The position numbers were made by a program, and so were the translations under genes. The notes under the pieces are model-generated. The model did no database searches. It was not told the origin of the DNA and saw nothing but the letters and a program-made list of their open reading frames with translations. From Desulfonatronospira sp. (lineage in GTDB: Bacteria > Desulfobacterota > Desulfovibrionia > Desulfovibrionales > Desulfonatronovibrionaceae): 50,014 nucleotides of DNA. Of the stretch, positions 21,592 to 23,667 are shown one piece after another (positions within the stretch are counted from its first letter, which is position 1; each line of letters begins with the position of its first letter). The stretch covers positions 1-50,014 of the forward strand of contig SLDX01000030.1 of NCBI GenBank assembly GCA_007125075.1, given 5' to 3'.

Positions 21592-22314
21592 ATGCGCCTG
21601 GCCATCTTATCTGACATCCACGGAAACATCGAAGCCTTCAAAGAGGTCCTCAGGGATGTAACCGCCCAAAATGTTCAGGGCTGTTACTTTCTGGGTGACG
21701 CCATCAGCTACGGCCCGGAACCCGACCGCGTGCTCAGGCTGCTGCAGAGGCTGAATATACCCTGCGTTCTGGGCAATCACGAACTGGCTTTGATACACAG
21801 CTATGCCAGAAACTATTTCAATTTCACCACCAGGCATCATTTCGCCCAGGCGGAAAAGCTCATTTCCCTGAAGTCTAAAAAATTCATCTCCACCTGGCCG
21901 GCCTGGCGCAAGGAGCAGGGAATGATCCTGGTGCACGGCTGTCCTCCGGATTCAGCAACCAGATACCTCTTTGAGCTTGACCAGGAGCAGCTTTTCCGGG
22001 TGTTCTCCGCCATGGATTTTCCTGTTGCCTTTGTCGGGCACACCCATGAGCTGGAAATCATTGAGCAGTTTGACCATGGCATCATGCACAAAAAACTGAC
22101 TCAGGGAATACACCTTGTTCAAGGGGACAAGGCCTTGATCAATGTGGGCAGCGTGGGCCAGCCCAGAGACGGAGACAACAGGGCCAAATACATTATCTGG
22201 GAGCCTGAGAAAAAAAGTATTGAAGTCTGCTTTGTCGATTATGACATTCTCAAGTCGGCAGCCGGGATATTGAACAGGGGTTTTTCCAAAATATATGCGC
22301 AGCGGCTGTGGTGA
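21592..22314 (+). CDS. metallophosphoesterase (calcineurin-like)
   Basis: A 240-residue single-domain phosphoesterase. The binuclear metal motifs are all present: SDIHGN (Asp8, His10), LGDAISYGPEP, LGNHE, LVHGCPP and VGHTHE. The GDAISYGP form matches the family of small bacterial enzymes related to phosphodiesterase YfcE and PrpE-type phosphatases. The stop codon is only three bases before the start of a Ser/Thr kinase gene, so the two are almost certainly co-translated, and a role as the opposing protein phosphatase is possible. That pairing is inference; the native substrate could equally be a nucleotide. Confidence 0.85.
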   Translation: MRLAILSDIHGNIEAFKEVLRDVTAQNVQGCYFLGDAISYGPEPDRVLRLLQRLNIPCVLGNHELALIHSYARNYFNFTTRHHFAQAEKLISLKSKKFISTWPAWRKEQGMILVHGCPPDSATRYLFELDQEQLFRVFSAMDFPVAFVGHTHELEIIEQFDHGIMHKKLTQGIHLVQGDKALINVGSVGQPRDGDNRAKYIIWEPEKKSIEVCFVDYDILKSAAGILNRGFSKIYAQRLW

Positions 22315-22317
22315 TCC

Positions 22318-23667
22318 ATGCGCAGGATAGACGGATACAAACTGCAAAGCATTCTCGGCCGGGGGCGGATGTCCAGGGTGTACAAAGCTTTGGATGCGCG
22401 GCAGAGCCGGCTTGTGGCCCTGAAGGTTTTCAGGCCTGACGATCTTCTGCAGGACCTGGTTGAAACTGATGAACTGAGAAGAAGATTTCTTGCAGAGGCA
22501 AGGCTGATGCACGAGCTTCAACACAGGCATGTCGCGGCAGTGATCGAGACTGGTGAATACTGCGGCAGACCTTATCTTGTTCAGGAATATCTGTGCATGA
22601 ACCTGGCCCAGCTCATTGGCGAAGCTCCGGAAGTGGAGCCTCCGGCACGAAGACTGTCTCCGCTTCGAGCCCTGGAAATCGCGGATCAGACCCTGCAGGG
22701 GCTTGAGCACCTGCACCGGGCAGGAGTGGTGCACAGGGATATCAAGCCCGCGAATCTGCATATAACTCAGGACAGGCAGGTCAAGATCATTGATTTCGGT
22801 CTTTCCAGAGTCAGGGATCAGGAACTCAAATATCCACCGGGAGTTATTGTCGGGTCTCCTTATTATGCGGCCCCGGAACAGATTGAAGAACCTGACAAGG
22901 CTGACCTCAGGGCTGATCTTTATGCCTTGGGAGTGGTGCTGGTACGCATGGTTACCGGAAATCTGCCCGAAGTTCGGGATCTGAAGGATTTGGATGACGA
23001 ACTGTTTGGCCCTGAGTGGAGGGATTTTTTAAAAACCGCTCTGGCCGTGGATCCAGGCAGGCGTTTTAATGATGCCGGATCCATGCTTGAAGCCCTGAGC
23101 AGACTTAGAAGAAACTGGGAAAAAAGCAGGGACCGGGTCTGTGTTCTGACTGCAAAGGAAGCGGGTTTCCGGCGAAGCGGTCCGTTTTTGCCGCGCGGTG
23201 AGCCGTTGCACACCAAAGAATCAAAAAACCTTTCTTTTCTGGAACTGGACAGGCTGCTGCAGCCCAGGTCCCATGTGCGCAATCAGTTTCAAAAGACAGA
23301 AGACGGCATGCTTGATCAGACCACGATGCTGGTATGGGGGGAAGTCTCCAAAGAACGAATGCATTTTGAGCAGGCGCATGAATATGTGCGTTTCTTAAAC
23401 CAGAGCAGGGTGTGGCGGTTGCCCACGGTTGATGAGTTGGTTTCTCTGATGCAGCCCAGGAAAAGCCTGGAAGACTTCTGTGGTCCGGCCCTGATGCAGC
23501 TGGAAAAGCGCTTCTGGCTCTGGAGCGCTGACACAAAGTCCCGGTCCAGGGCATGGTTGGCGGACATGGAACAGGGGGCGGTAATGGATGAGGACCGTTT
23601 GTGCAGCTTTCACGTCCTTCTGGTCAGAAGTGCAGAGAAAGAAGAGCTTTCAGTTATGAATTCCTGA
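22318..23667 (+). CDS. Ser/Thr protein kinase with C-terminal DUF1566-like domain
   Basis: A 449-residue protein. Residues about 6-262 are a Hanks-type kinase: nucleotide loop GRGRMS with Ser19 in place of the third glycine, Lys36 in VALKV, catalytic HRDIKPAN (Asp141, Asn146), metal-binding DFG (Asp159) and APEQ of the P+1 loop. All catalytic residues are intact. After a basic linker, residues about 310-440 look like a DUF1566/Lcl-type domain (TMLVWGEVSKERMHFEQAHEYVRFLN, then WRLPTVDEL and FWLWSAD). No transmembrane helix is seen, so it is a soluble kinase. It follows the phosphoesterase by three bases. The DUF1566-like part may bind a ligand or substrate. Confidence 0.85.
   Translation: MRRIDGYKLQSILGRGRMSRVYKALDARQSRLVALKVFRPDDLLQDLVETDELRRRFLAEARLMHELQHRHVAAVIETGEYCGRPYLVQEYLCMNLAQLIGEAPEVEPPARRLSPLRALEIADQTLQGLEHLHRAGVVHRDIKPANLHITQDRQVKIIDFGLSRVRDQELKYPPGVIVGSPYYAAPEQIEEPDKADLRADLYALGVVLVRMVTGNLPEVRDLKDLDDELFGPEWRDFLKTALAVDPGRRFNDAGSMLEALSRLRRNWEKSRDRVCVLTAKEAGFRRSGPFLPRGEPLHTKESKNLSFLELDRLLQPRSHVRNQFQKTEDGMLDQTTMLVWGEVSKERMHFEQAHEYVRFLNQSRVWRLPTVDELVSLMQPRKSLEDFCGPALMQLEKRFWLWSADTKSRSRAWLADMEQGAVMDEDRLCSFHVLLVRSAEKEELSVMNS

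Follow-up and report, generated by a model that had tools for sequence, protein, structure and literature searches.

The usual dedicated partner of a bacterial Ser/Thr kinase (STK) is a PP2C phosphatase, often encoded in the same operon (available text of PMC6213207 and PMC12088040), and STK operons usually provide one such phosphatase per kinase (same portion of PMC6213207). The window analysed here—50,014 nucleotides of contig SLDX01000030.1 from Desulfonatronospira sp. (class Desulfovibrionia)—contains a kinase gene preceded at a distance of only 3 bp by a gene for a calcineurin-type metallophosphoesterase (MPE). We asked whether these two genes form a functional unit and, if so, whether the MPE might take the role that elsewhere belongs to PP2C.

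Organization of the locus

The MPE gene (positions 21592–22314, forward strand; 240 aa, ATG start) ends in a TGA at 22312–22314 and, after a gap of 3 bp (22315–22317), the ATG of the kinase gene follows on the same strand (22318–23667; 449 aa), exactly as the initial annotation had placed the two reading frames. Both gene products were assigned by ORF call, Pfam match and structure model. Judging from the size of the gap, translation of the two genes is likely to be coupled. Across 29 compared stretches, neighbours of the pair were common only within genera, with the pair itself being more widespread; a conserved wider operon was considered and rejected, as nadA, the gene for the 644-aa protein c7 (which we take to be U32-peptidase-like) and a GIDA/TrmFO-type gene were shared only between loci belonging to the window's genus.

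Family and fold of the metallophosphoesterase

The MPE matched PF12850 (Metallophos_2) with 56.4 bits (cut-off 27) and PF00149 with 51.1 bits (cut-off 21.5), lacked any transmembrane-like stretch (top 19-residue Kyte–Doolittle mean, 1.09), and had D8, H10, D36, N62, H63, H115, H150 and H152 invariant in 21 aligned rows—residues that presumably make up the metal-ligand motif. Its structure model (pLDDT 94.6) matched the fold of 3rqz with a Z of 31.9 (230 aligned residues, rmsd 2.6), further matches being two archaeal proteins (Z ~27) and SapH (3qfn; Z 25.3) and, lower down, PP5 and calcineurin (Z ~16). Together with the DxH, GD, GNH, H and GHxH motifs, this fold places the protein in Metallophos_2 of the 3rqz/SapH type. 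Identity to the two best solved relatives was ~26–31% overall, with ~30% for 3rqz, whose entry names no function, and 26–29% for SapH (Spr1479), whose structure entries call it an asymmetric Ap4A hydrolase and a phosphodiesterase; the gene of the present MPE is tied to a kinase. An open-access literature search found no mention of Spr1479.

Phosphatases of the PPP family, such as the PrpA/PrpB type and PrpE of B. subtilis, have a related calcineurin-like fold and dephosphorylate proteins in bacteria (available text of PMC12088040). Against two bacterial protein-serine/threonine phosphatase models of the PrpA/PrpB type, however, the MPE scored just 21.3 and 18.2 bits (cut-offs 326 and 332), and its predicted structure resembles the 3rqz/SapH group more closely than it does the PPP phosphatases. 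A protein-phosphatase report does exist for another calcineurin-like MPE, human CPPED1, described as a Ser/Thr protein phosphatase in the available part of PMC8366450; this protein is eukaryotic and can be set beside the window's MPE by description only.

While we infer protein-phosphatase activity for the MPE, the activities named for SapH make a nucleotide substrate a live alternative. The MPE would then hydrolyse nucleotides or phosphodiesters (Ap4A/ATP-like or cyclic nucleotides), and the kinase would either regulate it or sense the same metabolite through its C-terminal Lcl_C domain (see below), so that the pair would exert small-molecule control instead of acting on a phosphoprotein pool. 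The identity of the best solved relatives speaks for this reading, which we regard as possible but somewhat doubtful in light of the distribution of the two genes presented further on.

The kinase and its C-terminal domain

The catalytic domain of the kinase (22336–22971; residues 7–218) matched PF00069 with 143.3 bits (cut-off 31.7). K36, E60, D141, N146, D159 and G161 were invariant in 22 aligned rows, and we take K36, E60, D141 (the HRD Asp), N146 and D159 (the DFG Asp) to be the catalytic residues, such that the Lys, Glu, HRD Asp, Asn and DFG Asp expected of a Hanks-type Ser/Thr kinase are all present. With Pfam scores above the cut-offs and motif residues invariant in the orthologues of both proteins, the description of the pair as a phosphoesterase and a catalytically complete kinase is confirmed; that the kinase is soluble, as also claimed at the outset, agrees with the lack of a transmembrane-like stretch (top 19-residue Kyte–Doolittle mean, 1.26). 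In its own genome (2.17 Mb, 97% complete), this kinase alone passed the Pkinase cut-off, with three further matches staying below it. Against the PknB_PASTA_kin model it reached 177.5 bits, over residues 7–217 only (cut-off 450). The structure model (pLDDT 87.7, pTM 0.90) comprises a PknB-like catalytic domain—with C-lobe helices extending to approximately residue 276, beyond the end of the Pfam domain—and a folded tail, and its pTM suggests that the tail packs on the kinase domain in a defined manner. A fold search with the whole model had kinases among the best 50 matches listed.

Over residues 331–437 (23308–23628), the tail matched PF07603 (Lcl_C, the former DUF1566) with 50.2 bits (cut-off 34.9), bearing out the earlier assignment of a DUF1566-like module in place of PASTA repeats, and W366, R367, P369 and E373 were invariant in the 22-row alignment of kinase orthologues. 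A sequence search with the tail against solved structures returned no relative (best E, 0.98). The same Pfam domain occurs in the Legionella collagen-like adhesin Lcl, where it belongs to an extracellular, trimeric, glycosaminoglycan-binding domain and most of the conserved residues sit in the core; the general role of Lcl_C is left open by the authors of that study (all from the available text of PMC11162425). By our own matching of residues to that text, the Trp, Arg and Glu are conserved in Lcl as well, whereas the domain here is the C-terminal part of a kinase predicted to be cytoplasmic. The tail could possibly regulate the kinase by binding a ligand or through oligomerisation.

Several orthologues depart from this layout. 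Kinases of 624–647 aa from one genus (L125/G093, L126/G097, L238/G092, L239/G091) bear insertions, among others near model positions 79–84 and 320–334, and a loop motif, LSRLRGE, is repeated in those of G092 and G091. On contig C122 of G043, a stop just ahead of Lcl_C (L091:558–560) divides the kinase and Lcl_C parts, and the copy on a second contig (C98) has no stop within the kinase match. Kinase and Lcl_C lie in separate, overlapping ORFs in G326 (L149:5416–5763), with the break again just ahead of Lcl_C.

The activation loop

Within the activation loop of the window's kinase (22801–22854; residues 162–179), there is no Ser/Thr beyond Ser163, nor any after loop position 3, the next one being Ser180 in the P+1 segment, and the cluster of phospho-accepting Thr/Ser typical of kinases of the PrkC/PrpC type is therefore missing. 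This is a trait of the family: the loops of 68 distinct members contained 0.87 Ser/Thr on average compared with 3.74 in 85 other kinases, counted after dropping duplicates and sequences that misfitted the search pattern (34/171 family ORFs, 12/100 others); a looser first count gave 0.91 and 3.41, respectively. Loops without any Ser/Thr were recorded for 27 of the 68 members, including the window's kinase, versus 3 of the 85 others, and HLD replaced HRD (Arg to Leu) in eight of the 68.

These figures bear on a mechanism close to the one that the initial annotation proposed to assay, namely, that the MPE reverses activation-loop autophosphorylation of the kinase in a simple switch. Such a switch is known for PknB/PstP (available text of PMC6213207). 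Yet the loop has lost most of its Ser/Thr and part of the family has exchanged the HRD Arg, which makes a PknB-type switch unlikely here and points to substrates of the kinase, or other sites within it, as the more probable targets of the MPE. The Ser/Thr of the P+1 segment is retained in the family and may thus still serve as a phosphosite.

Co-occurrence of the two genes within the class

Using profiles of both proteins, we searched 348 genomes of the class and found a kinase orthologue in 141, an MPE orthologue in 147, and both in 137 of them (Fisher p 1e-78, a value that is not to be read as a probability). Accordingly, 137 of the 141 kinase-bearing genomes also possess the MPE, and the four that do not were rejected as counter-examples: three (G043, G068, G235) have a kinase that starts right at the end of a contig or close to it, whereas the fourth (G222) is 82% complete. 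The genes were adjacent in 76 of the 137 genomes, always on the same strand with the MPE upstream, and the profile ends were at most 33 nt apart in 59 of these 76. In the remaining 61 genomes they lay apart, either on the same contig (25 genomes; 8 kb to ~3.2 Mb in linear coordinates) or on different contigs (36 genomes, some perhaps through assembly breaks). The initial annotation had named two findings that together would dismiss its proposal, an MPE active only on nucleotides and a pairing that is not conserved; recurrence within the class excludes the second.

A first count gave ten genomes with the MPE only. When all candidates were scored in a repeated search, the kinase was recovered in four—beside the MPE in G091, G092 and G327, and on another contig in G090—having been cut up or missed by the faster first search. 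Six genomes stay MPE-only: G006, G227 and G289 (99% complete), as well as G224, G228 and G229 (54–81%). By a hand count of 59 genera, 31 had both genes, two the kinase only (g15 and g46, the contig-end cases) and three the MPE only (g41, g42, g43). Both genes were absent from near-complete genomes such as G005, G010, G020, G033, G048 and G058 (genera g1, g2, g7 and g14), and in G006 only the kinase is absent. In G032 (97% complete), which lacks the MPE, one contig begins with an Lcl_C-like stretch; this is possibly a kinase fragment and was left out of the kinase count.

As a control, we inspected the flanks (up to 4 kb) of 79 other kinases from named genomes of many phyla, of which none had an Lcl_C match and two had a relative of the MPE nearby. 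In the underlying search of named organisms, one of 80 loci proved to be a full-length relative (L156, from a Desulfovibrionales MAG, with match coordinates equal to those of G029); the other 79 are the control loci. The order and phylum names used in this account follow from L156 and from coordinates common to several genomes and are to that extent tentative. An arrangement found again in 76 of the 348 class genomes is hence not a matter of chance, and the two genes constitute a well-supported functional unit, present together in 137 of 141 cases whether adjacent or apart. A first scan with a single sequence had given no matches, and a weak search of the literature, limited to open-access papers, found no description of a kinase/MPE pair.

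The pair beyond the class

A second sample of 297 genomes was taken from the phylum to which a Desulfobulbaceae genome belongs; with five candidates scored per genome, its counts are lower bounds. At least 27 of these genomes matched the kinase profile at the threshold, 22 of them over the full length (in two pieces in G496), the remainder being four other kinases and one chimaera (G380). All 22 full-length kinases came with an MPE match, adjacent in 19 genomes and apart in three (G391, G485, G512). Three of the 22 repeat coordinates of the class sample (G628 = G056, G564 = G046, G391 = G021), leaving 19 new pairs, of which 17 are adjacent. For 18 of the 22 kinases we fetched the surrounding DNA: kinase and Lcl_C were found together in all 18 stretches and an MPE within 16 of them, the exceptions being G485 and G512. 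Eight phylum-draw genomes, for which completeness values were not given, had the MPE without the kinase (G371, G387, G403, G445, G523, G537, G583, G647).

The chimaera of G380 (L264:3633–5003 on contig C14) is a single ORF in which positions 1–174 of the MPE profile run in frame into the kinase from position 198 on, followed by Lcl_C. Either a deletion or an assembly error has thus truncated both catalytic domains. Other candidate MPE/kinase fusions (L031, L021, L023, L052) were rejected, as by eye their long N-terminal extensions look like low-complexity read-through of other frames. In G647, a 642-aa kinase without an Lcl_C match is followed after 75 bp by a pair-type MPE (L266:1231–3969, contig C27), which looks as though another kinase had taken the place of the original partner.

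We also considered, and discarded, a general linkage of the MPE subfamily to kinases, for only four of the 27 paralogues examined had a kinase in their flanks. These four (L274, L276, L277, L310) lie ~0.6 kb from another Hanks-type kinase and share one five-row clade of the MPE tree, perhaps a separate association. A second pair with reverse order, the kinase preceding a metallophosphoesterase with an overlap of 4–10 bp, was seen at L088:8578–10601 (G011) and L087:9178–11261 (G009). The kinase at L088 lacks an Lcl_C match. Its cluster further encodes a universal stress protein, a Cons_hypoth698 protein, a Tll0287-type histidine kinase and a sigma-54 response regulator; the neighbours at L087 are related ORFs.

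Separation, loss and an apparent one-way dependency

We placed the MPEs in a tree of 107 rows (quick method, SH-aLRT support only). The pair-type MPEs formed one clade with full support, apart from 17 paralogues. Linked and unlinked states required six changes on this tree. Its support is uneven, with 35 of the 104 inner branches open, and starred branches by themselves force just three changes of the 'unlinked' label against all other rows. MPEs without a kinase occupied 12 scattered rows from 11 genomes (G006, G227, G289 and the eight of the phylum draw), a label that required ten changes, three of them forced by starred branches.

The two genes might still be neighbours that are co-inherited without any common function. 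Pairs were counted in related genomes, a kinship that the Fisher value ignores, and many of the linked cases may go back to one ancestral operon. We nonetheless consider such hitch-hiking very improbable, since it leaves unexplained why both genes are kept in the 61 genomes where they are apart (allowing for assembly breaks among the 36 different-contig cases), why six linkage changes are needed on the MPE tree, and why near-complete members of g1, g2, g7 and g14 lack both genes, although G006 lacks the kinase only. That adjacency was broken several times with both genes being kept is our strongest argument for a functional tie.

The tie appears to be asymmetric. The MPE occurs without the kinase but hardly the reverse, suggesting that the kinase depends on the MPE and not vice versa; most simply, a genome that lost the MPE could hardly retain the kinase, while the MPE is of some use alone. 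Its persistence in kinase-free lineages suggests that the MPE probably serves a purpose outside the pair. Free-standing metabolic enzymes would persist in the same way, as expected if the MPE were a nucleotide hydrolase; the near-absence of the kinase without the MPE (4/141), by contrast, would not follow from such an activity unless the MPE were the main substrate of the kinase.

PP2C and other phosphatases

In eight of 18 pair-bearing genomes (G001, G002, G003, G013, G022, G024, G025, G319), neither of two PP2C models (PF13672 and PF00481) found a match; G001 is 82% and G013 89% complete. For the window's own genome, absence of PP2C was suggested by PF13672 and overturned by PF00481, which identified a PP2C on contig C28, where no Pkinase match is present. 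Consequently, the MPE is not the only candidate phosphatase of this genome. The protein in question (L336; G000:C28:18996–19679) is a eukaryote-like stand-alone PP2C with 157.6 bits to PF00481, also present in G018 and not found in the other three searched genomes of the window's genus. In G007, G015 and G016, PP2C genes lie less than 1 kb from other kinases, so ordinary STK/PP2C pairs coexist with the STK/MPE pair.

Known systems such as PknB/PstP, PrkC/PrpC and Stk1/Stp1 likewise place a Hanks-type kinase and a metal-dependent phosphatase side by side. Their phosphatases, however, are of the PP2C type, whereas the one encoded here has a calcineurin fold (PF12850/PF00149). Moreover, the PASTA kinases of STK/PP2C operons are membrane proteins and those of such operons have a Thr/Ser cluster in the loop, whereas the present kinase is soluble, ends in an Lcl_C tail and lacks that cluster.

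A proposed kinase–phosphatase module

Both enzymes keep complete catalytic residues and are co-inherited, and our best reading of the locus is a kinase/phosphatase operon in which an MPE holds the place usually taken by PP2C. We give an even chance to the two genes being a cognate Ser/Thr kinase/phosphatase module. In such a module, a cytoplasmic kinase, regulated via its Lcl_C tail and probably not switched by loop autophosphorylation, would phosphorylate cytosolic proteins, and the MPE would take PP2C's place by removing phosphates from the resulting phosphoproteins or by holding the kinase in check, most likely acting on substrates of the kinase or on sites in its tail or linker. The MPE would probably also have a function outside the pair. 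Of the two-gene phospho-switch proposed in the initial annotation, the conserved functional unit thus stands, while reversal of autophosphorylation at a loop so poor in Ser/Thr is improbable.

More tentatively, and with less than even confidence, we propose that such pairs make up a class of bacterial module in their own right and a widespread one: a Metallophos_2 phosphoprotein phosphatase would be dedicated to an Lcl_C-sensing kinase that works independently of loop phosphorylation and is tolerated only alongside this phosphatase. The apparent one-way dependency of the kinase on the MPE offers a clean prediction for deletion genetics. If the kinase/phosphatase reading holds, these bacteria would rely for phosphoprotein signalling on a phosphatase family that is usually annotated as generic phosphoesterase, and this would help to explain the kinase-bearing genomes without a PP2C match. 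The pair would then offer a concrete substrate class for the uncharacterised metallophosphoesterase group of 3rqz, and an intracellular setting for Lcl_C domains.
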